In this document: positions 15,903 to 32,265 of the stretch, piece after piece
Position numbering within the stretch: position 1 is the first letter of the stretch
How the letters are laid out: each line of letters starts with the position of its first letter
From: Hepatocystis sp. ex Piliocolobus tephrosceles
Taxonomy: Eukaryota > Apicomplexa > Aconoidasida > Haemosporida > Plasmodiidae
Assembly: GCA_902459845.2 (NCBI GenBank)
Contig: CABPSV020000077.1
Location: 1 to 33,289 of the forward strand
Length of the DNA stretch: 33,289 nucleotides
Direction of reading: 5' to 3'
Translations under genes and position numbers: made by a program
The notes under the pieces: generated by a model
Seen by the model: the letters and a program-made list of their open reading frames with translations, nothing else
Told to the model about the DNA's origin: nothing
Databases searched by the model: none

Positions 15903-17131
15903 TTATTTTTTTTTTTTGGAACTGTCTTGTACGGATTTACGACCAAATAATTTACTAAGAAGAAAGCAAGTAATAAAACCGCAACCAAAAGATATTGAAC
16001 TGATTAAAATTAAAGATGGGAAAGCATATTTGTATATTCTGTCAATATTTGTAAGTGCTTCATTTATCATGTCTTTGACAATGTCAGTAATAGTAAGAGG
16101 TTTAGGTGGTTCAACTGCTTTCGTTGTTTTGTATGTTTCCATTACGAAGTTTTTAAAAGCTTCTAAAGATCTATCATTATTTTTGTATTCATATAATTTA
16201 CCATTTTTAAAAAATAATAATGTTGGAAAACCTTCTATTTTAAATCTTTTTCTAGTTTGGGCATTTGTAGTAGCATCAATTTTAGCTATGTTTACTTGTC
16301 CTTTAAGTTCTGAAGCCAATTGTGCCCAAACTTTACTAATGGCTTTACAGTGTGTACACCAGGGTGCGTAAAATTTAATGAACCATGATCCTGTGAACGG
16401 TAAAAAAAAATACAAAAAACAAAATAAATAATAAGTAAATGGATGCAACAAAATATATGTATATACATATGTACATATATATATATATATATAAAAGGAT
16501 CAACCGAATAAATAAATAGATAGTTGAATAAAACATAATATAATAATAGAAAGCTTGTATATGAAAGCATAAATAATTAAATAAAGATATAAATAAACTA
16601 CAAAATCGTTGAATGTTGTGTAGTTTCTGATTTTATGTAACATATTGAGTAAAAAAAAAAAAAAATAAAAAAATAAAAATAAACGAAGAATAAACGAAAA
16701 ATAAAAGAAGAATAAAAGAAGAATGAACGAAACATAAACGAAGAATGAACAAAACATAAACGATGAATAAACAAAAAAAAAACGAAAAATAAAAGAAAAA
16801 TAAACGATTAGTAAACAAAAAATAAACGATGAATAAACAAAAAATAAACGAAAAATAAAAGAAAAATATCGTATAATTACATACATATGCATATACATAA
16901 TATATATACTGATTTATATTATAAATAAAACAACATGAACCAAATGAAATTGCATAAGAAATAATAGAAAATAAATTAACAAAAGTAATAATAACCTGAT
17001 GTATTTCCTGTTGACATTTGAGTCAAGTTTTCAAAATTTGCATCAGTTAACTCAATCACATCTTGGGTAAAGCAATAATTAAAAAATGTTAAAAAAAAAA
17101 GTAACACAAAAGATCTTAAAATTATTGCCAT
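15903..17131 (-). CDS. Membrane-anchored thioredoxin/PDI-type oxidoreductase, ER (2 exons)
   Basis: Exons 16996-17131 and 15903-16390 join across a 605-bp GT-AG intron into 207 residues; the junction codon (G46) keeps frame. The N terminus (MAIILRSFVLLFFLTFF) is a clear signal peptide, cut near residue 22. One thioredoxin fold follows: FYAPWCTHC with redox cysteines C57 and C60, KIDATTN, and the cis-proline loop GFPT (P101). After an acidic/helical linker, a membrane span lies at about 168-190, and the tail ends SSKKKK. This is the type I layout of TMX-like PDIs: redox domain in the ER lumen, lysine-rich tail in the cytosol, where lysines at -3 and -4 fit a COPI dilysine retrieval signal. The active site is CTHC rather than the usual PDI CGHC. 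Family-level function is thiol-disulfide exchange in secretory folding. The terminal lysines come from an A12 run, so a one-base indel would change the tail. Confidence 0.94.
16391..16995 (-). other. Intron of the PDI-type gene, containing an 11-12 bp degenerate repeat
   Basis: The donor is CAG/GTTATT at 16995 and the acceptor TTCACAG ends at 16391. At 605 bp it is longer than most introns in this window. From about 16680 to 16868 the plus strand shows degenerate units such as AATAAACGAAGA, AATAAAAGAAGA and AATAAACGATGA. Minus-strand frames across it (Phe/Ser/Leu/Val-rich) are repeat translations, not a gene. Confidence 0.85.
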
Positions 17132-17896: not shown

Positions 17897-18357
17897 TATG
17901 TTTATATACATATATACATGTTTTTTTTGTTAGTAATATGTTTTTTAAATAAATGAAAAAAAAACTATTTTTCTTTAGTAAAAAATAAAACAAAAGTAAA
18001 ATGAAAAATAAAATAAAAAAAAAGGCGTGATATAACCTGTATGGATGGTTGGAATAATTTAAAAAAAAAAAAAAAAAAAAAAATTAAAACATTATAATAT
18101 ATATGTAAAAAACTACGTTAAAAAAAAAGCTATATTGTTTTACTGAAAAAAGAATTATAAAAAGTAGCATTTTGCATACAAATAAAAGGATTAAGTAAAA
18201 GATTAAAAAATTGAAAAAAAGAAAAATTGATCAATTTTTTTTATTAATATACTTTTCATAATATATATAATACTTAATTATTGTGAGCTTTTTTTTTTGT
18301 GTTTTTAAAGTTAAAATATATTTATAAAATGTTGAAATTATAATATTATTTCACTAA
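17132..18357. other. Intergenic region between PDI-type gene and CDPK-like gene
   Basis: 5' flank of the PDI-type gene and 3' flank of the CDPK-like gene, both minus-strand. It contains (TA)n at about 17176-17193 and 17880-17899, poly(dA) runs (17863-17880, 18061-18083) and several short A-runs. I see no coding region or RNA gene. Confidence 0.65.
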
Positions 18358-18461
18358 TTATTTGCTAATATAGCCATAGAATTCTTCAAATGCTTAAAAT
18401 TAAAAATATAAAAAAAATATATACGCGTATGTGTATGATTATATGTATGCTTATGTGTGTA

Positions 18462-18508
<47 letters not shown>

Positions 18509-19111
18509 TTTGTTTATGTGTATGCTTATATGTGTGCATATTTAATAAATACAAAACAACACAAATTTATAAAAAATAAATATTCTTTATATACATGTTG
18601 GCAAAAAAAAAAAAAATAAAATAAAATAATAAGTGTTATGTTAATGCAAATGTCAAACTGAAAGCAATAAAAAAGAACTAATCTAAAATAAACTAATTAG
18701 TTAAACAAAAAAGAATATATATATCATATAACAGTTAACAAAAATATAAAATTTATATATATATATATATATATAATTTTTAAAGTGCATTATGAAGCCT
18801 TACTAAATTTTTTTTTGTTGATGAAGCTAGTTTCATTTTTTACTTTAATTTTATAAAGTTTATATAGTTTTTTTTTTGTTATTATGCCTAAAAAGCAAAT
18901 AATAATTTACATATACAAAAACATAAGAACATATATATATATATACTCAGGTTTATCTACATAATATTTATGAATATGTCTTTAAATCACGTAAATAAGA
19001 AACTATACATAATGCATTTTACCTTCATTATCGTAATCAACTTTTTTAAAAAATTTTAATGCCATTTTCTTTTCAATTTTAATAAATTTATTTAAAAGAC
19101 AAGCTATAACA

Positions 19112-19142
<31 letters not shown>

Positions 19143-20777
19143 GATTTATTATTATTATCGTATAAAATAATAAATGTAATAATTTTTTAAAGTATATACA
19201 GACAAATAATAAAAAAGAAGTTTATTTTTTACTGCTAAACTCTATGTGACCAATATTTAAAATATCTAATCCGTCAAACGATTCTTTTATCTAACATGAA
19301 AAATTAAAAACAATAAACGTTGGATTCGAGGAGTTTGACAAAAATAAATGAATAAATAAAATTAATGAATAAAATAATTAAAAAAATAAATGGATAAATG
19401 GATGAGTAAATAAATAAACAAAATAGATCAACAATTTTTACATTGGCATCCATCAGACCTAGTTTCATCATGGTTGCAAAATATTGTGTATATTTTATTA
19501 ACCCTTCTTCCGTTATATCAAAATAAAAAAACAAAGAAGTGTATTCTGTAAAAAAAAAAAAAAAATAAAACAAATGTGATTACAAAAATGTGTTTAAATA
19601 CAATATGAACATTTTTTTTGTTTGTGTTACGATAATAATATATAAAATAAAGATATTTTTTTATTAATTGGTAAAATATATATATATATATATATATATG
19701 GTTATTTTCATATTTATACAGTATGATTTGTTAATATTTAGAATTCTTTTCGTCCTACTATATATATCTTCTTTCACTAAAAACTTAGAAATGTTATTAA
19801 GTATATATCTTTTAAAGATATTTACTCTCCAGAAGTTATAAATACTAAAAACAAATTTACATTATTTTGGAAGCATGTAAAATTAAAAATGACAAAATGA
19901 CACATAAATATATGTGTAAATTAATGCATATATATATTAACGTGTAAATTAATGCATACATATATAAAAACTATATATATATATATATATTAAAATCCAT
20001 TCATTTACCTTTGTAGTACATCATAATTTATATATACAGTTTGATTCACATTTTCTTTAAACCAGTCCTTTTAAAGAAAAAAAAAAAAAAAATAATAATA
20101 AAACATATAATTAATAATTAACTTTGTTTTTTTATCATTTTTAACATTTGAATAGAATTAGAAATAGTAAATTAATAGATAAAAATAAAAAGAGGTTTTA
20201 TTATTTGGTTACGTGATATAGTGCTTCTTTAGTGGTTATCATAGAACTGTTAAAAAAAAAAATTGCAAATTAATATGTATATATATTAAGCGATGTGTAA
20301 ATATATATATGTATATACTTATATATATATAACCTTGAACCATTTAGTAAAATTGTTTTCAAAAAGTGTTGTCCCTTTTTTGATACACTTTCCCATCTAT
20401 TAAAATGTTAAAAAAAATTAACGTTTAAACAATGTAAAGCAATCAAGAAAAAATGTAAAATGCTGAAAACAGTAGATCAACACAAGATTAAAATAAATGC
20501 AGAACAATACAAATATTTCTTTTTTTTTTTTTTTTGCAACGTATTACAAATTAAAAAAAAAAAAAAAAAAAGAGGACTAACAATTTGGAAGGGGATGAAA
20601 AAATCTCTTCTTTATTGTTCATATATAAATTTGGATATTTCCCAAATATTAAAAAATACACTATAAAAATATATTAAAAATAATAACTGATTATATAAGT
20701 TTTAATATTATTAATTAATGATATATTAATGACAAACTTGTAAGAAGTATTTAAAATAATGAAAAAAAAAAAATAGA

Positions 20778-20819
<42 letters not shown>

Positions 20820-22060
20820 ATATTATCACTTATAATTCCAATGCTGTACACATTTTGTCTTCTCATAGTTTTGTGTGCTGAATATAGAAAAAAACAAAAA
20901 TTACATATATTAATGCATCAAAATAATATATATATATATATATATACATATGTATAGATACATAATTATATAAGAAGGAAATATAACATTTTGAAGAATT
21001 TAATATAATCTTATGAATGTCTTCTAATTTAATCATGAGTTCGTTGTTAATAGATTTAATCAGGAAGCTTTGAAGATGTAGGTTCCTAAAATATCGTTTT
21101 TTTTTATAAATAACGTTAAAGTATTTTATTGTATATATATATGTACATATGTATTGGCTTATTTATATGAATGTATATATGTTTTTATTTATTGTTAATG
21201 GTAGGTTTTATGTTAATAACTTGTGTACTAAATTTTTTGAGTGTAAATAATTGACAGTAAGTATAATCTGTAAGAATAATAAATAAATAAATGGGTATGT
21301 ATAACGAAAAATTAAAAAATATATGTAATATAAAACAAAGCAAAGTTGTGTATAAAACATATATACATACGCTTTGTTAAATTTTATGTATCGTACATTA
21401 ATATCACATGTAACAATATGTTTCAACACACAATCACAGTTTTATAGTATTTTATTATTTATATTTTTTCTTTATATTATTGATTAACCTGGTATATTAT
21501 GTTCTTAATTGTACTTTCATCGTACTGAGTATTATATACTTTGGATGTGTATAAATTTGTTTCTACAAAATAAATTAAAAAGGAAGATAGACAAATACAT
21601 ACATATGTAAAAATAAATACATATAATAAAAAAAATGTAAAGGAAAAAATAAAATATATGTAAAAATCAAATGTTCTAAAAAATTAACATAATTGCGAAC
21701 TATTGATTTATTGATTTATTAAAAAAAAAAAAAAAAAAAAATACCAGAGAAGAACTCAAATACGGTAATTGAAGATGATGCATATTCACAGTAATGAATT
21801 AACTTAAGAATATATGGGTGGTCTAATGATGAAATTATAAATTTGTTATTATCTACATTGGGACTTCTGTTTTTAACTATAACTTTGTATTTGTAACCAT
21901 CAATACTATTATAACTGTAAAATATTTTTTTAACATTATTTTCTTTTACTATACAAATAGGAACATGATCTTTTAACACACACGTCTGTGTTTCCAGACA
22001 AAACGAGTTTAAAAAGTTATACGTATTATTGATATTATCGGCAACGTTTTTAGCGTTCAT
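18358..22060 (-). CDS. CDPK-like pseudokinase with degenerate EF-hands (15 exons)
   Basis: I rebuilt 15 exons (minus strand): 21745-22060, 21489-21562, 21221-21267, 20988-21085, 20830-20877, 20582-20660, 20334-20396, 20213-20246, 20009-20067, 19759-19844, 19442-19545, 19233-19290, 19023-19112, 18804-18887 and 18358-18392. They give 424 residues with every phase consistent. Kinase landmarks run in CDPK order: VIVK (K63), SLDHPYILKLI (78-88), YLHSKNLVHK (137-146), NVYSIGII for DVWSIGVI (187-194), W222 plus a helix, and TTKEALYHDWF ending the C-lobe (~247-256). A junction helix and four EF-hand-like units follow (loops from D311, D345, D381 and about 402-413). HRD is HKN (145-147), DFG is DIH (168-170), the alphaC Glu is absent, the activation segment lacks APE, and no Gly-rich loop is seen. 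EF loops lack the position-12 Glu, or the early ligands in the fourth. So kinase activity and normal Ca2+ binding are unlikely. Donors are mostly weak (GTTATT, GTTATA, GTGATA), so single boundaries could shift, but the motif losses do not depend on them. Confidence 0.85.
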
Positions 22061-22111
22061 TTTTAATTTTTAGTTTATTATATGTTTAAAAAACTTTTGT
22101 CATATTTTTTA

Positions 22112-22173
22112 ATTCTTGTTTTTTATTCTTGTTTTTTATTCTTGTTTTTTATTCTTGTTTTTTATTCTTGTTT
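22112..22173. repeat. 13-bp tandem repeat (ATTCTTGTTTTTT), 5 copies
   Basis: Units start at 22112, 22125, 22138, 22151 and 22164. The repeat lies about 51 bp upstream of the CDPK-like start codon. On the sense strand of that gene the unit reads AAAAAACAAGAAT. Confidence 0.92.
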
Positions 22174-22520
22174 AAAAAAAGCATTTTTTTTTTGCTTTTT
22201 TTAATATATATTGAATGTTGTTGTTTTTTTTTTTTTTTTATTATTTGAATTATATAGATATACATATTTATAAATGCATTTACAAATGCATATATAAACA
22301 TATATACATATATATACATGTCTATATGAGTTTATAGGATTTTGATACATATATGTATATTTATCAATGACTTGTTCTTTATATATATATCCTTTCCATA
22401 CATATGCATAATTTTTATTTATTTTTAAATCATGTAAACAGGAAATAATTAAAAGTTGTCTTTTTAACTTTTTATTTTTATTTTTTTTTAAATAATTTAT
22501 ATATAAACATGTATGCATAA

Positions 22521-24133: not shown

Positions 24134-24151
24134 ATGGGAAAAAAAAAATGA
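24134..24151 (+). promoter_or_regulatory. Short upstream ORF overlapping the Aquarius start (ATGA)
   Basis: ATG GGA AAA AAA AAA TGA: a five-codon uORF whose stop TGA (24149-24151) overlaps the main ATG (24148-24150). It is either a reinitiation-type uORF, or the sign that the true N terminus is MGKKK... and the A10 run has lost one base. One extra A would fuse the two frames. Confidence 0.5.
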
Positions 24152-27100
24152 ATAAAAGATCAAATAAAACTATTACAAGAAATAATGATTTAGAACATAA
24201 ATCAAAGAAGGGGAAATGTAATAACAACAACGATGTAAATATATTAGATGATAAAAATGTTTTACCGAAAGATTTAAATACAAATAATATTAATTCACTA
24301 ACCAGTGACGATAATTTTCAATTTGTTATTAAACACATAGATTTTGATATATTTTTTCAAAAAGAAAATAGGAAAGGGGGTGATAAAAAAGGTAGTAAGA
24401 AAGGAAATACTAATATTGAGCACACTGATTTTAAAAATATTGAAGACAAGAATAAAATAGATTTAAAAACTTTACATTTTATAGGTAGAACATATGATTT
24501 TTTAATAAGAAAAAATTTGAATGGTAAATATTTAAAACGGCTAGATAATTGTCAATATTTTGAAAAAATATTATGGCCTAATTACAACATATATGACGAG
24601 TTGTATGTTTTAAAAAATAATAGTATTTTTTTTAATAACAACATATCTTCAATTAACAAAATAAGTACATTATATATAAAACACATTTTATCATTAATTG
24701 TTTTTATTTGTTATAAATATGAAGAGAAAGGTAGGCATGAAATATGGGATGAAATTGTTTGTAACAAAATTGATGAATTTGAAAAATTAGTGCAATTTGA
24801 AAAAAATGGTTACACGGAAAATAATAACAGTAAAATAAATGAAAAGTACAATTTATATAAAGAGTTTTTAGTATATAAATTTAATAACTTATTTTACAAC
24901 ACCGTTAAATTAATAAATTATAATTTTGTTTTTAATCAGTTTACAAAACGTTTGCATAGTAACGTAGAGACTAATAAAGTAAAGACTAGTAAAATAGAGG
25001 CTTATAAAGTAAAGACTAGTAAAGTAGAAGCTAATAAAGTAAAGACTAGTAAAGTAGAAGCTAATAAAGTAGAGGCTAATAAAGTAAAGACTAGTAAAGT
25101 AGAGGCTAATAAAGTAAAGACTACTAAAGTAGAGACTAATAAAGTAAAGACTAGTAAAATAGAAGCTAATAAAGTAAAGACTACTAAAGTAGAGACTAAT
25201 AAAGTAAAGACTAATAATTTTCATAATAAGTTAATAAGTTATAAAAATAAAATTTTTCAATTAAATTTTTTAGAAAAATCTGTTATTATTAAATTTTTTA
25301 TAAATATATATGCCTGTATTGATAAAAAATATATTTTTAAACTGTGTTTGGATTTGTGTAATCCATATATATGGAATTGTATACATTATGATTACTTACG
25401 TACATTTCTTTTAAAAAAAAATGAAGAAGCAAAAATGCTTTATCATAATATTACAAGTATTATGAAAAAAAAATATTTAAATGATAAAATTTATGACTCC
25501 ATAAATGTGTATACTTGCAATTGTAATAATAATATAACAGACCGCAATTTTTTACAAAATAATAGTTTACATAATCAGAACATACATAAAAATAAAATTC
25601 AGAATGAAGAAAATTCAGAAGAATATGATGAAAATATTATTATGTTTATAAATAAGAATAATTTTTTTTATAATTTAATAAATTACTTTTTAATAGTTTT
25701 AAATATGGTTGAGCAAGAATATGAAGAAGAAGAAAATGATGATGAAGTATTAAGCTGTTCTTCTTCTTCATCTTCATGTTCGACAAGTGATAATGAAACC
25801 AACGACAAATTGAAATTAGATCAATTTGAAAAATATATCAACACATATAGTAATAGAAAAAATAATAGTTTATTGGAAGTATTAGATATGAATAATGGGG
25901 AGGTAAGCAAAGAATATCTTTTAGCGACTAATGAAAATGATAAAGGTGTGGTTAAGTTGTATGACAACGATGGTAACGACAACGATGGTAACGACAACGA
26001 TGGTAACGACAACGATGGTAATGACAACGATGGTAATGACAACGATGGTAATGACAACGATGGTAACGACAACGATGGTAATGACAACGATGGTAACGAC
26101 AACGATGGTAACGACAACGATGGTAACGACAACGATGGTAACGACAACGATGGTAATGACAACGATGGTAATGACAACGATGGTAATGACCACAATGGTA
26201 ATAATGACACTTATCCTTTAAATCACAAAAGCAATGGAGTTATCACTACTGACGAAACTGATCTAGATTTAATAACTTATTTAAAAAATGTTTCTAACAT
26301 TGATAAAAAGGATAAGTATGTAAAACATGACACATTTAGTAGTATTAATTATTCTAAAGAGATAGAAGAAAATGATTTGATCGAAAGTTATTTAAAATAT
26401 GCATCAAGTGATGATGAAACAAATAAACTATATGTAGATAATAACAGTAGTGCACATAATAATATCAATAATAGTAAAAAAAACGAAATTTTAGAAATGT
26501 TTTTAAAATATGAAAGTAAAATTAAACCTTATCGTAAAATACTTTCCAAACAAAAAAAGAATAAAAAAAAATCTATATATAATGGTGAAAATATAAAATT
26601 TATTATACTATTTATTGAAAGTTGTATTGAATTTTTTACTGATTGTTTGAGTCAACTTTATACAAGAAGAATATTGTATATTTTTATGAAATATTTTAAT
26701 GTATTAATTTATTGTAAAATATCTTGTTTGAATAGAAATAGAAAATTTAAAAAGTTAATTAAGATTTTAAAATATTATATGGAAATGTATATAAATAACT
26801 TTTCTGGAAATGCATTAACATATTTAGAAATAGATAATGAACATTATAAAAATTTTGAAAAATTCCAAAGTTTTTGTTATAAATATTTTAAAGATGATAG
26901 AATTTTAAAAAATTTTTATTTAAAATCCGTTTTTATAATGGACAAAAAAAAAGAGTTATTAGAACATTTTGTTAAATTAGATAAAAAGCAGTTAATATTG
27001 TTATGTAAAAAATTAAAGTATATTACTATATTTCAAAAAAGAAAAAAAATGGTTGACAAATGTGATGAGGGGGATGAAATGATAATGTATGAGGATGGTA

Positions 27101-30100
27101 CGTTTGGTGTTACTAAAGAAAGTAATAAATTAGACACTACTGATGAAAGTGATGGACGAATCACATCAGATGATGAAATAAATAATGAAGCCAAAAATAT
27201 CAACATAAAAAGAGCTCCTAAAAATGAATCCATTAATAGTAATAATAATAACAATACAATATTCGAGATTTGCAATTTATTTGTTAAAAAAAGAAAATTA
27301 TTTTATATAACATTATTAATTGAGAATTTAAGTTATAAAAGTAATATTTTTGAAGACGTCGATAAACAATGTGATTATCCCAATGAAAGAGATTTATTTG
27401 AAAATGTGTTAATAGATACAAAAGACGATTTAAAGAATAGGGAAAAAAAAAAAAAGAATACATTTTTTAATACTAAACCATTGTTTAAGTTAAATTTACA
27501 ATATTTATGTATTAATGACTACATATATAGGATTTATAATCTATTTAAATTACAAAGTTATTATGATATAAGGAAAAATATAATTGAGTATGTATATGAG
27601 ACAAATCCTAAGAATAAAAAAATAAATGAAAACACTATATGTAATTATGTTTTTGAAATTGATGAAAGGAATCAGAGTTATAAAAGCGTTGAAAAAAAAA
27701 AAATTAATAATTTAAAAAGTTTAACATTATCAGAACAGGACACTGACAATGATTTTACACAACAAAATAAAAAAGAAAAATTTGAAATGATTAAAGAAAC
27801 CGTTACTATGGTAAAAAAAAATAAATTACTTAATTCGAAAAATAGGTATTTATTAAATGATAATATTGTATTTAACGAATATCAATTAAATTCGATTATA
27901 CATGATGTGAATGAAATAGATAATACTTATTTTGCAAATGAAAGGAGAATGAGCAATAAAATCAATTCGTTTAAAGTTGTAAGTGTTGATGATAATGCAA
28001 AAAAAATAATAGCAGAGATTATTATTGATTTAAAATATAAATATCATGAAAGGGCTCATATTGAATGGAATATGATTAAAACATCTGATATTTTATTTGT
28101 AGTTTGTGTTAAAAATTATACAAATTATTATAAAAATAAAATAAATGTTATCTCTGATAATGATTTGAAAAATTTATTAGGTATTAATTATGTTAGAGGA
28201 TGTGAAGTAGTGAAGTATGAAAATATAATTGAAGATAATGTAGATATAACAAATGAGAATCGTAATATAAAAAAAATTACAGTATATTTGGATTATGCAC
28301 AGTATAAAAAAGATTTAATAAATAATCCGGAAGTATACAGCTCTTTTAATTTATTGATCAGAAGAAAGCAGAAAGAAAATAATTTTTATGACATTTTAAA
28401 CAATATTAAAATATTAATTATGAACCCAGATAGTGCAATTATACCGTATTGGGTGCATGATATTTTTTTAGGTTATTGTAATAATTCGTTAAAATATTAT
28501 CAGGAATTGCCTTCGAAAAAAGAAAACGGTAAGTGTGATAGTGATGAAGGTTCAGATGGAAGTTCAGATGGAAGTTCAGATGGAAGTTTAGATGGAAGTT
28601 TAGATGGAAGTTTAGATGGAAGTTTAGATGGAAGTTTAGATGAAAATAATGTTACGGAGAGTAATACAACAGGAGACGATAGTGCATCAGAAGATAACGT
28701 TACAGATGACAATGATACAGATGACAATGATACAGACGATAATGCATTAAGCAGAAATGAACTAATCGAAACTAAAATGAGTGAAAATAAAAAGAATGTA
28801 AATGATAGGACAAATAAAAAGAGTGTCACTACATATAAACATGGAAAAAAAAATAAAACGTCCACTTTAAATAATAGTAAAGAATTATGTTTTGTACAAA
28901 ATAACACTGATGATATAAATTATTTGAATACATTTGTAAATATTAAACATGTACTTAATACTACTAGCGTTGGTTATGTATGTATTGATTCATCTTATAT
29001 TTTGAATGATCCAAAGGATAGTGGAATTGCGAATGTAAAAAAACTATTAAATGAATTCATCGAACCATTATTTTTAAGCTATGTTCCAATAAAATACAAA
29101 AATGAGAAAAAAGCATTACAAAAAAACATAGTACTAACAAACATCCTTCAAAGCTTAAAGCAACATATATGTATTATTAATAAACAGGAAATAAATAATG
29201 ACGATTTTGTTATTAATTTTATGTCAAATATTATTAAAGTTGGTTATTTATATGAAAATTTTGTTATTTTTGGATTTGAATTTCAAAGTAAAAAATATTT
29301 TTTGATTTTGAATAATTATTTAAATAAATTACTTACTGTTGAGGAAAGTACTGAGTTTTTCACATATGTTAGAGACAAATGTCAAGATGTTGATCATAAT
29401 GGAAGTCGTAATGGTGTAGATACGGATGACAGTACTTTTGGTAATGTATTTACAATACATAATGTAAGTAGTATTAAAAACATATTTAAAACTATTGTAA
29501 ATCGTTTAATTAATTATTTGAGTGTAAAGGATAACATATATAGAATAGTAAATAAAATATATGAGTATGCAGATTATCCGCTAGAAGGGTTATTAATTCA
29601 TAGTAAAAAAATAAACAGTACCAATGTTGATTTTGGTAATTTTAATAATGGGTATCGAAATAAAAGTATAAAAAATACAATACATTTTACAGCAAGGCAG
29701 ATTGAATGTATAAAAAGTGGCATATATAAAGGTATTACATTAATTGAAGGTGTTCCAGGTAGTGGTAAAACAAGTATATTAAATAAGATAATAAATATTT
29801 TATTTAATAATCATAAAAAAGAGAAAATTTTGATATGTACACATAGTAATAGTTGTTTAAATTATATTTTTAATTTCCTTGTTAAAGAAAATTTGATTCA
29901 TCAGAAATATTTATGCAGAGTTGGAATGGGAGAGTTAGATATTGAGAATTTACGAAATGAGTATGAAGAAATTGAAAAAAGTTTAACTAAAAGTAGTAAT
30001 CAGAATAATACAAATATTGATAAAAATATTGATAAAAATATTGATAAAAATATTATAAATATAAATGACATAAACGAATTTAACAAACCAGAGAATGAAT

Positions 30101-32265
30101 TGTATGATGAAGATGATAATTTTAATTTTTCAAAATATGGCAGAATAAATTACATGATTGATTTAAGAAAAAAATTGTTAAATGAAGTAAATTTATTAGA
30201 ACAAACAATACATAATAAAAAAATATATAATTGTTTATCAGCTATTCAATATTATGAAATTGTAATAAAAAAACGTATAAGTAATTTTTTTAAATATACT
30301 AATACATATTTGTGCCAAGAATATGATAAAAAAGAAAATATTGATGATTTTATACAATCTTATGTAGCATCTTGTACTGATGAATACGATTTATATAATT
30401 TATTTTTATGCCCTAAGATATATGTAAAAAATGTTGAAAAATTAAAACATATATTATGCACAAAAATAAATCGAAGTGAATATGATTGTAAGGTAACTAA
30501 TGAAATATGTATATTGGAAGAAGATAAAGAATGCTTTTATTTAATACATCCACGTGATCAAATAAAAACATTAAATTTGAGTATATATAATGTTATATTT
30601 CCATTTAAAAAATACGTAAACATAAAATTGGAAAGAGTTAACTTAGATCATTACACACGGTATAAAAATAGTTTGATGAATGAGGTGTTAACTTCCACAT
30701 TTGACGGAGGTGTGCTTGATAGTATGAATTCAACAGCAGGAACCGTTACAAATGACAAAGCATATAAAAACATTAGTAGTAATGGTAGTAGTAATAGTGG
30801 TAGTAACAATTATGTAAATGATGGGTGGAATGATGGGGGGAATGAAAAAAAGGATAATGTAATAACAAATACTGTGCATAACGAGGGTAAAGATATAGCA
30901 TCAGTAAATAAAAAAAAGTGTGATTATTCTAACGAGACGCACGAAACGAACAAAAGTTATAATAATATTCACCATAGTAATACTACTAGTAGTAGTAATC
31001 GTAATAGTAATAATAATAATAATAATAATAGTAATAATAGTAATAATAATAATAATAATGGCGCGTATAAAATATTTAAAGGTGAAACACATGATATAGT
31101 TTTCGAAAACAAGAAAGATGATTTATATGTAAGCAAATATTATTTACTTAAATTAGTAAAAATATTTGAACACTTAAATGATTGTAGAGCATTTGAAGTT
31201 TTGAAAAATCAAAAAGAAAGAGGTGTTTACATAATAGCTAAATTAGCCAGGGTAATTGCAATGACATGTACACATGCAAGTATAAATAGAAGTAAAATAG
31301 CAAAGTTGCAATTTTATTTTGATAATATTATAATTGATGAATGTACACAAATAACAGAGAATGATACCTTTTTACCATTATTACTACAAGAAAACCGATA
31401 TGAAAAAAGTAAATTAAAAAGAATTATTTTTGTTGGAGACTCTAATCAATTACCACCTATTATAAAAAATAAATATATAAAAAATTATGCAAATTATGAA
31501 CAATCTTTATATAAAAGGTTTTTACGATTAGGATTACCATCCATTTATTTAAATGAGCAAGGTCGTATGAGAAGTGAAATATGTAATGTTTATAAATATT
31601 TTTATACAAAATATAATGCTCAAATACAGAATTTATCTTGTATTGATAAGGATAAATTTTTAAAAAAATTTAACCCAGGTTTTACTTATACATATCAATT
31701 TATACATATAGAATCAGAAGAATATACACCTATCCCATATTTTTATCAAAATTTGTTGGAAGCTGAAATGGCTGTTGCTATTTTTATGTACATGAGATTA
31801 TTAGGCTATTCAAATGATATTATAACAATTTTAACAACTTATAATGGGCAAAAAGAATTAATTTTAGATATTTTAAAAAAAAATTGTTTATATAATAAAT
31901 TAATAGGTATGCCTAAAAAAGTAACTACTGTTGATAAATATCAAGGAAAACAAAATGATTATGTAATTGTTTCATTGGTTAGATCAAGAAGTATAGGATA
32001 TATGAAAAATATTAAAAGATTGATTGTTGCATTTTCGAGAGCCAGATATGGATTATATGTACTTGGGAATTATAATTTGTATAAAAAAAATTATGAATTC
32101 AAAAAACCATTATATTTTTTTAAAAAAAATAAATTGGAATTGTCCTTACAAATGAATGAAAACTTTAATACAACAGAAAGAAAACATGACAATTCCACTG
32201 TTATTATAAAAGACCTAAATCAGTTGTATTCAATTATTTATTCTTTATCAAAGGCTTATTTTTAA
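24148..32265 (+). CDS. AQR: Intron-binding spliceosomal RNA helicase Aquarius
   Basis: A single-exon frame of 2705 residues, against ~1485 in human AQR. The excess is low-complexity insertions. It belongs to the SF1/UPF1-like helicases. Walker A is GVPGSGKTS (1868-1876, K1874); Walker B/motif II is DECT (2397-2400); motif III VGDSNQLPP begins at 2429; QGRMR is at 2471-2475; motif V is DKYQGKQNDYVIVS (from 2596); and motif VI is AFSRAR (2628-2633). What sets it apart from UPF1 and SEN1 is the Aquarius signature after motif Ia: a long insertion with FSKYGRINY and LNEVNLLEQ (~1990-2015), matching FSRYGRVNY in AQR. The N-terminal ~1000 residues are helical, as expected for the AQR ARM-repeat region; the stalk/beta-barrel precedes the helicase core. 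AQR binds introns near the branch point, joins the spliceosome through the intron-binding complex and is linked to intronic snoRNP assembly. All ATPase motifs look intact. Start choice depends on the A10 run noted for the uORF. Confidence 0.95.
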   Translation: MNKRSNKTITRNNDLEHKSKKGKCNNNNDVNILDDKNVLPKDLNTNNINSLTSDDNFQFVIKHIDFDIFFQKENRKGGDKKGSKKGNTNIEHTDFKNIEDKNKIDLKTLHFIGRTYDFLIRKNLNGKYLKRLDNCQYFEKILWPNYNIYDELYVLKNNSIFFNNNISSINKISTLYIKHILSLIVFICYKYEEKGRHEIWDEIVCNKIDEFEKLVQFEKNGYTENNNSKINEKYNLYKEFLVYKFNNLFYNTVKLINYNFVFNQFTKRLHSNVETNKVKTSKIEAYKVKTSKVEANKVKTSKVEANKVEANKVKTSKVEANKVKTTKVETNKVKTSKIEANKVKTTKVETNKVKTNNFHNKLISYKNKIFQLNFLEKSVIIKFFINIYACIDKKYIFKLCLDLCNPYIWNCIHYDYLRTFLLKKNEEAKMLYHNITSIMKKKYLNDKIYDSINVYTCNCNNNITDRNFLQNNSLHNQNIHKNKIQNEENSEEYDENIIMFINKNNFFYNLINYFLIVLNMVEQEYEEEENDDEVLSCSSSSSSCSTSDNETNDKLKLDQFEKYINTYSNRKNNSLLEVLDMNNGEVSKEYLLATNENDKGVVKLYDNDGNDNDGNDNDGNDNDGNDNDGNDNDGNDNDGNDNDGNDNDGNDNDGNDNDGNDNDGNDNDGNDNDGNDNDGNDHNGNNDTYPLNHKSNGVITTDETDLDLITYLKNVSNIDKKDKYVKHDTFSSINYSKEIEENDLIESYLKYASSDDETNKLYVDNNSSAHNNINNSKKNEILEMFLKYESKIKPYRKILSKQKKNKKKSIYNGENIKFIILFIESCIEFFTDCLSQLYTRRILYIFMKYFNVLIYCKISCLNRNRKFKKLIKILKYYMEMYINNFSGNALTYLEIDNEHYKNFEKFQSFCYKYFKDDRILKNFYLKSVFIMDKKKELLEHFVKLDKKQLILLCKKLKYITIFQKRKKMVDKCDEGDEMIMYEDGTFGVTKESNKLDTTDESDGRITSDDEINNEAKNINIKRAPKNESINSNNNNNTIFEICNLFVKKRKLFYITLLIENLSYKSNIFEDVDKQCDYPNERDLFENVLIDTKDDLKNREKKKKNTFFNTKPLFKLNLQYLCINDYIYRIYNLFKLQSYYDIRKNIIEYVYETNPKNKKINENTICNYVFEIDERNQSYKSVEKKKINNLKSLTLSEQDTDNDFTQQNKKEKFEMIKETVTMVKKNKLLNSKNRYLLNDNIVFNEYQLNSIIHDVNEIDNTYFANERRMSNKINSFKVVSVDDNAKKIIAEIIIDLKYKYHERAHIEWNMIKTSDILFVVCVKNYTNYYKNKINVISDNDLKNLLGINYVRGCEVVKYENIIEDNVDITNENRNIKKITVYLDYAQYKKDLINNPEVYSSFNLLIRRKQKENNFYDILNNIKILIMNPDSAIIPYWVHDIFLGYCNNSLKYYQELPSKKENGKCDSDEGSDGSSDGSSDGSLDGSLDGSLDGSLDGSLDENNVTESNTTGDDSASEDNVTDDNDTDDNDTDDNALSRNELIETKMSENKKNVNDRTNKKSVTTYKHGKKNKTSTLNNSKELCFVQNNTDDINYLNTFVNIKHVLNTTSVGYVCIDSSYILNDPKDSGIANVKKLLNEFIEPLFLSYVPIKYKNEKKALQKNIVLTNILQSLKQHICIINKQEINNDDFVINFMSNIIKVGYLYENFVIFGFEFQSKKYFLILNNYLNKLLTVEESTEFFTYVRDKCQDVDHNGSRNGVDTDDSTFGNVFTIHNVSSIKNIFKTIVNRLINYLSVKDNIYRIVNKIYEYADYPLEGLLIHSKKINSTNVDFGNFNNGYRNKSIKNTIHFTARQIECIKSGIYKGITLIEGVPGSGKTSILNKIINILFNNHKKEKILICTHSNSCLNYIFNFLVKENLIHQKYLCRVGMGELDIENLRNEYEEIEKSLTKSSNQNNTNIDKNIDKNIDKNIININDINEFNKPENELYDEDDNFNFSKYGRINYMIDLRKKLLNEVNLLEQTIHNKKIYNCLSAIQYYEIVIKKRISNFFKYTNTYLCQEYDKKENIDDFIQSYVASCTDEYDLYNLFLCPKIYVKNVEKLKHILCTKINRSEYDCKVTNEICILEEDKECFYLIHPRDQIKTLNLSIYNVIFPFKKYVNIKLERVNLDHYTRYKNSLMNEVLTSTFDGGVLDSMNSTAGTVTNDKAYKNISSNGSSNSGSNNYVNDGWNDGGNEKKDNVITNTVHNEGKDIASVNKKKCDYSNETHETNKSYNNIHHSNTTSSSNRNSNNNNNNNSNNSNNNNNNGAYKIFKGETHDIVFENKKDDLYVSKYYLLKLVKIFEHLNDCRAFEVLKNQKERGVYIIAKLARVIAMTCTHASINRSKIAKLQFYFDNIIIDECTQITENDTFLPLLLQENRYEKSKLKRIIFVGDSNQLPPIIKNKYIKNYANYEQSLYKRFLRLGLPSIYLNEQGRMRSEICNVYKYFYTKYNAQIQNLSCIDKDKFLKKFNPGFTYTYQFIHIESEEYTPIPYFYQNLLEAEMAVAIFMYMRLLGYSNDIITILTTYNGQKELILDILKKNCLYNKLIGMPKKVTTVDKYQGKQNDYVIVSLVRSRSIGYMKNIKRLIVAFSRARYGLYVLGNYNLYKKNYEFKKPLYFFKKNKLELSLQMNENFNTTERKHDNSTVIIKDLNQLYSIIYSLSKAYF
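24964..25214 (+). repeat. Lys-rich 5-residue repeat inside the AQR gene (15-bp half-units)
   Basis: About 16 units alternate NKVKT and SKVEA/TKVET-type pentapeptides (15 bp each, 30-bp higher order) at residues ~273-355. The repeat is predicted helical and charged, with Lys of one unit near Glu of the next. It lies inside the N-terminal helical region and keeps frame. The antisense frame is a shadow. Confidence 0.93.
25963..26195 (+). repeat. Acidic NDNDG repeat inside the AQR gene (15-bp unit, ~15-16 copies)
   Basis: The 15-bp unit GACAACGATGGTAAC (or with AAT) repeats almost perfectly and encodes DNDGN at residues ~607-682. The only differences are silent AAC/AAT changes in the Asn codon, which suggests recent expansion. 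Both antisense and shifted frames stay open for the same reason. Confidence 0.95.
28552..28641 (+). repeat. 12-bp GSSD/GSLD repeat inside the AQR gene
   Basis: Seven to eight 12-bp units encode GSSD (GGAAGTTCAGAT) and then GSLD (GGAAGTTTAGAT). They are followed by an acidic DDNDTDDND tract to about 28745. The repeat sits between the beta-barrel/stalk region and the helicase core. Confidence 0.92.
30670..31070 (+). other. Asn/Ser-rich insertion inside the AQR helicase core
   Basis: Residues ~2175-2308, between the Aquarius-specific insertion and the strand leading to motif II, are low complexity (NGSSNSGSNN, later SNRNSNNNNNN). They interrupt an otherwise conserved region and so probably form a surface loop on the fold. 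No conserved helicase motif is broken. Confidence 0.8.

Follow-up and report, generated by a model that had tools for sequence, protein, structure and literature searches.

The 33,289-nucleotide contig CABPSV020000077.1 of Hepatocystis sp. ex Piliocolobus tephrosceles (assembly GCA_902459845.2), called the window here over its whole length, contains on its minus strand (22060..18358) a gene of 15 exons and 14 introns, which gives a single frame of 424 codons plus a stop. Judged by sequence and predicted fold, its product appears to be a pseudokinase derived from the calcium-dependent protein kinases (CDPKs), and it is called the pseudo-CDPK below. The predicted loss of catalysis is ancestral, being common to all nine full-length orthologues, and the explanation that we prefer, with moderate confidence, is an ancient non-catalytic scaffold of CDPK origin that would hold a partner through its junction helix and third EF-hand, mainly in sexual or transmission stages.

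Loss of catalytic residues in the orthologues

A protein search gave 14 matches (best E-value = 7.7e-178), 13 of which span 95-97% of the query with 43-69% identity; twelve of these 13 bear Plasmodium names, P0012 being the exception. The 14th, P0003, is from the red colobus monkey assembly, which contains Hepatocystis, a descendant of Plasmodium and sister to rodent Plasmodium as described by Aunin et al. 2020 (PMC7425995). When the search was made with the alignment of nine orthologues, P0015 was added, together with more distant CDPK-like proteins. Neither search returned a rodent Plasmodium entry (they covered protein entries, not rodent genomes, and cluster members were partly unnamed), and the gene is likely absent from rodent Plasmodium. 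It is present in P. vivax, P. ovale and the Hepatocystis window, a distribution which suggests that a single gene predates the split of the sampled Plasmodium lineages and Hepatocystis.

The site counts given below refer to nine of the 15 orthologue records (P0001-P0015), all full-length, with the window protein read separately; P0003 (partial and from the same organism) and P0006, P0011, P0013, P0014 and P0015 (incomplete or read-through gene models) were left out. P0006, P0011, P0013 and P0014 are likewise without the HRD Asp or DFG in their aligned parts. The P. falciparum strain entries P0013, P0014 and P0015 contain hydrophobic stretches that are absent from the other orthologues, as from introns read through, so that these entries seem to misannotate the 15-exon gene. 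In a midpoint-rooted tree, P0012 groups with bird and Laverania sequences.

A Pfam search recognized a protein kinase domain in the window protein (E-value = 9.5e-17). As the initial annotation had stated, HRD is HKN (145-147), DFG is DIH (168-170), the alphaC Glu and APE are missing, and an NVYSIG helix follows, all of which agree with the window sequence and the orthologue alignment; the protein also has Ser152, and Asn187 in NVYSIG. The shortening of the activation segment is likewise real, although 18 residues, and not about 16, lie between D168 and N187. Three Gly-loop glycines, the alphaC Glu and the DFG Gly are lost in all nine full-length orthologues, and so are the HRD Asp (Lys in five, Asn in two and Gln in two), Lys168 (Ser in four, Leu in two, Thr in two and Ala in one) and Arg280 (Met in six and Ile in three). 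In the same nine, Asn171 is replaced by Ser and the alphaF Asp by Asn, and the activation segment is deleted together with APE. By comparison, 52 CDPKs (picked by hand from 120 among 7732 matches to a CDPK2 query, and leaning to CDPK2-type kinases) all keep the HRD Asp, Lys168, Asn171, DFG, alphaF Asp and Arg280; their third APE position is Gln, which leaves a Glu-Arg pair out of the argument.

A pseudokinase is a kinase fold without at least one of the VAIK Lys, HRD Asp and DFG Asp, and the HRD Asp is absent from all nine orthologues and from the window protein. Of the features of an active CDPK (the HRD Asp and Asn171, a Gly-rich loop, the alphaC Glu and DFG), neither retains any but the DFG Asp, and it is predicted from these residues that the protein cannot plausibly transfer phosphate. 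No HRD-, DFG-, APE- or Gly-loop-type motif was found in the six frames over 18300-22300, a scan that would miss a codon divided between two exons; therefore, no alternative splicing here is expected to bring any of them back, and the splicing that the initial annotation had named as evidence against itself, one that restores HRD or DFG, was not found in these frames. In the databases, P0001-P0015 represent the same gene, and the losses are common to the nine full-length ones. They are labelled as kinases ('protein kinase, putative', or 'calcium-dependent protein kinase' for P0005), despite motifs that speak against activity.

Exon model and the EF-hand half

The exons, all on the minus strand, were assigned from the gene model with the additional evidence given in brackets:

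21745..22060, minus: exon 1 (residues 1-106), N-terminus, N-lobe without a Gly-rich loop, and hinge (orthologue alignment)
21489..21562, minus: exon 2, alphaD-alphaE (orthologue alignment)
21221..21267, minus: exon 3, alphaE and the beginning of HKN (145-147), the equivalent of HRD (orthologue alignment)
20988..21085, minus: exon 4, remainder of the degenerate catalytic loop (HKNLHLQS) and DIH (168-170), the equivalent of DFG (orthologue alignment and site counts)
20830..20877, minus: exon 5, activation segment in shortened form, then NVYSIG (187) at the start of alphaF (orthologue site counts)
20582..20660, minus: exon 6, alphaF-alphaG
20334..20396, minus: exon 7, alphaH
20213..20246, minus: exon 8, alphaI, with the Arg280 site that is Met or Ile in all nine orthologues (orthologue site counts)
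20009..20067, minus: exon 9, end of the C-lobe and linker to the junction
19759..19844, minus: exon 10, junction helix (272-296), one of the best conserved stretches (conservation profile)
19442..19545, minus: exon 11, EF-hand 1, with Gln at position 12 of its loop DITEEGLIKYTQ (EF loop comparison)
19233..19290, minus: exon 12, EF-hand 2, with Asn, whose codon is finished in exon 13, at position 12 of its loop DILNIGHIEFSN (EF loop comparison)
19023..19112, minus: exon 13, helix and beginning of the EF-hand 3 loop (conservation profile)
18804..18887, minus: exon 14, remainder of EF-hand 3, with Lys at position 12, followed by the greater part of EF-hand 4 (EF loop comparison)
18358..18392, minus: exon 15, last part of EF-hand 4 (TFEEFYGYISK) and the stop codon (orthologue alignment)

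All 14 introns are of the GT-AG type and measure 87-411 nt; exon 14 ends at 18804 and is followed by the donor gtaagg. The other two frames of the spliced coding sequence contain 46 and 50 stops. When its bases were shuffled 1000 times, the mean was 39.6 stops and the minimum 23, so the open frame of 424 codons is not a matter of chance. P0003, which was annotated separately and has 273 residues, is identical to the gene model over 272 residues, and junctions 1-8 are thereby supported; exons 10-15 align without gaps to the nine full-length orthologues. A CDPK-like gene hidden in 15 small exons with in-phase joins, as first proposed, is thus upheld by the full-length orthologues and by P0003. 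Neither a broken frame nor unconstrained change, the marks of a pseudogene, was found, the frame being open and the orthologues conserved, and the losses common to all nine also bear out the earlier view of a maintained, non-catalytic, CDPK-shaped protein.

Position 12 of an EF loop is normally Glu or Asp. In the full-length orthologues, it is Gln in EF1 (eight of nine, with Glu in P0012), Asn in EF2 and Lys in EF3 (all nine in both cases), and it is still acidic in EF4, where Asp1 is absent from all nine. In the window protein, position 12 is Gln, Asn, Lys and Glu in EF1 to EF4, respectively, and position 1 of EF4 is Ser; judged by residue, none of its four loops is canonical for Ca2+ binding, and normal Ca2+ binding by its EF-hands is predicted to be unlikely. 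Three Pfam EF-hand models match the window protein, all below their cut-offs; among the nine orthologues (E-value <= 0.01), EF-hand_6 matches seven and EF-hand_7 five (best 7.5e-07), and therefore the EF fold is recognizable. Thus, the four-EF-hand-like module of the initial annotation stands as a fold, but its canonical Ca2+ sites are degenerate, which had gone unremarked, and the profile search that was suggested there recovers the kinase domain but not the EF-hands above cut-off.

These observations bear on a rival explanation, that the protein is a Ca2+-responsive adaptor with a dead kinase half and an EF half that binds Ca2+ via atypical loops and relays the signal to a partner. The EF half is more conserved than the C-lobe (0.70-0.71 vs 0.60), Asp1 is kept in EF1 (eight of nine), EF2 and EF3 (nine of nine each) along with Gly6, and the Glu in P0012 and the EF-hand_6 and EF-hand_7 matches would also suit such an adaptor. 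However, the replacements at position 12 of EF1-EF3, the loss of Asp1 in EF4 and the sub-threshold EF-hand models in the window protein all speak against it, and we regard it as rather unlikely.

Fold, conservation and rate of change

The predicted structure of the P. ovale orthologue (predicted local distance difference test score, pLDDT, of 83) matches whole CDPKs, with PfCDPK2 as the best; a first model, built from the nine close orthologues alone, had a pLDDT of 43 and was discarded. The structural comparison suggested at the outset thus agrees with a CDPK shape, and the kinase domain, junction and EF-hand module lie in one chain, with the CDPK fold as predicted for the P. ovale orthologue. 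The model superposes on the calcium-bound CDPKs 3hx4 and 3lij at 4.3-4.5 A, on the activated 4y5q at 6.2 A and on the inactivated TgCDPK1 3ku2 at 24.8 A, a predicted conformation on which the dominance of CDPKs with intact motifs in the input alignment bears. PfCDPK2 (PDB 4mvf), which shares the domain order and whole-length fold of the pseudo-CDPK, was the top solved match in all three sequence queries and first in both fold searches. However, the P. ovale orthologue is only about 26% identical to P. gallinaceum CDPK2, and unlike CDPK2 the pseudo-CDPK has degenerate EF loops and, of the catalytic residues, keeps just the DFG Asp and in many cases the VAIK Lys; its activation segment, counted from the DFG Asp to the alphaF Asp or Asn, has 20 residues, as against 38 in CDPK2.

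Among seven regions, mean identity over the nine orthologues ranges from a low of 0.54 in the DFG/activation segment to a high of 0.76 in the junction, whereas in nine CDPK2-type kinases the two are reversed (0.69 and 0.59); the latter were picked by hand from more distant organisms, and only the order of the regions is comparable. The two best conserved 25-residue stretches begin at 376 (EF3) and 265 (junction), and the N-terminal tail, with 0.46, falls below the activation segment. In a midpoint-rooted tree, the stem of the clade has at least 3.12 changes per site (alignment across it is poor) and the tips 0.09-0.44, from which an early burst of change followed by constraint may be inferred. 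As for placement inside a CDPK subfamily, the stem of 3.12 carries a long-branch warning, and the closest CDPK paralogue is not separated.

Several results weigh against a conserved scaffold, and most would suit a relic that is under relaxed constraint and has disappeared from rodent Plasmodium while it drifts in Hepatocystis. With no rodent entry in the protein searches, the gene seems dispensable there; the tip branch of the window protein is 0.43, compared with 0.087 for P. ovale; and 12 of the 139 columns that are invariant in the other nine are changed in the window protein, the second highest count of ten. The pseudo-CDPK is 63% identical between P. gaboni and P. gallinaceum, whereas CDPK2 is 82% identical between a gorilla parasite and P. 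gallinaceum, so the pseudo-CDPK evolves faster than CDPK2 (the Laverania partners being different). In addition, the region from alphaE to the catalytic loop is still at 0.72 in the nine orthologues, so that the shift in constraint is not simple, and 43 of 424 equal-sized stretches match the conservation of the junction. A relic is nevertheless improbable, because one open frame and 15 exons are retained, the count of changed columns lies inside the range of the other tips (0-16), and the long stem is followed by short branches.

Atypical catalysis or nucleotide binding has been proposed for some pseudokinases, for example CASK, and CASK was among the solved-structure sequence matches. Residual activity of this kind could draw on the DFG Asp (nine of nine) and the aligned VAIK Lys (seven of nine), which survive in the full-length orthologues; it is very unlikely, however, given that the Gly-loop glycines, alphaC Glu, HRD Asp, Lys168 and Asn171 are missing from all nine and that, of the seven regions, the activation segment has the lowest conservation. 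A chance joining of unrelated frames is already refuted by the full-length orthologues and the independent partial gene model P0003.

ENA-contig CDPK-like proteins (P0016-P0020 and P0023) also have the CDPK layout, with HRD changed to NRS or NRG and the DFG Asp to Tyr in all six, but they differ from the pseudo-CDPK in retaining Asn171, APE, the alphaF Asp and Arg280, and P0016 also retains acidic EF positions 1 and 12. They are possibly a separate pseudo-CDPK family, and because long branches meet in the tree, they may be independent of the pseudo-CDPK.

Neighbouring genes, possible partners and meaning

Two genes flank the pseudo-CDPK, both assigned by domain match:

15903-16451, minus: thioredoxin-domain gene, same strand, downstream (possible first exon near 17000-17130, by eye)
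24148-32265, plus: Aquarius-like helicase, single open frame of 2705 residues, opposite orientation, on the other side

The helicase has an Aquarius N-terminal domain and an AAA helicase domain, interrupted by low-complexity repeats. The thioredoxin-domain gene probably matches the thioredoxin-related PF3D7_1352500 of P. falciparum (PMC9901795), and from the neighbouring IDs and this neighbour, PF3D7_1352600 is the probable P. falciparum orthologue of the pseudo-CDPK; PF3D7_1450000/PF14_0476 and PF3D7_1428500/PF14_0264 were dropped in its favour. PF3D7_1352600 ('protein kinase, putative') is raised in gametocytes (log2 4 and 2; PMC10581088), and the blood forms of Hepatocystis are regarded as gametocytes and gametocyte precursors (PMC7425995). 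A sexual-stage role is suggested by this probable identity, against which it counts that the link comes from ID adjacency to PF3D7_1352500 and not from sequence comparison.

The preferred reading is best put conditionally: the protein would be a fixed protein-binding scaffold, probably independent of Ca2+, with a conserved junction helix and an EF3 surface through which it would hold or tune a partner; an active kinase, or the substrate of one, is conceivable here. The regulation of active CDPKs that the initial annotation proposed is thus a conjecture. Reports of CDPK2 are confined to bird and Laverania parasites, and it is described as absent from murine and non-Laverania primate Plasmodium (PMC8960227), and the draft Hepatocystis genome is reported to lack CDPK5 (PMC7425995); the best match to P. 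gallinaceum CDPK2 in 12.4 Mb of this genome is only 38% identical. Because each is reported missing from some of the parasites in which the pseudo-CDPK occurs (P. vivax, P. ovale and Hepatocystis), they are unlikely as sole partners, and CDPK1, CDPK3, CDPK4 or a non-CDPK protein may be candidates. More tentatively, the protein could be a doubly dead CDPK, which lost both catalysis and calcium sensing before the sampled Plasmodium lineages split and, in a locked calcium-activated shape as modelled, serves as an organizer of sexual-stage signalling.

The gene itself is already catalogued as 'protein kinase, putative', and what seems new is its reading as a pseudo-CDPK. We found no account of it as such in the open-access literature on Plasmodium pseudokinases, CDPKs and kinomes, as far as the texts covered extend (supplementary kinome tables being outside that scope), and for PF3D7_1352600 the open-access search found only the gametocyte study (PMC10581088). 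In the portion covered, Tewari et al. 2010 (PMC2977076) name only tkl6, PFB0150c, CDPK2 and FIKK as differences between the P. berghei and P. falciparum kinomes, which suggests that the gene lies outside that kinome. Kinase-like genes separated from normal kinases are likewise known in P. falciparum (for example, PF3D7_1428500), but PF3D7_1352600 is not one of the seven pseudokinase or kinase-like genes named in the part of PMC11629380 covered.

In malaria parasites, CDPKs are under study as drug targets, and a pseudo-CDPK retained over a long time would add to calcium signalling a hidden component that is not an enzyme, of a kind that enzyme-based screens and kinome counts can miss. The label 'protein kinase, putative' can mislead about activity, and if rodent parasites do in fact lack the gene, the role of the pseudo-CDPK will stay out of reach of the usual mouse models.
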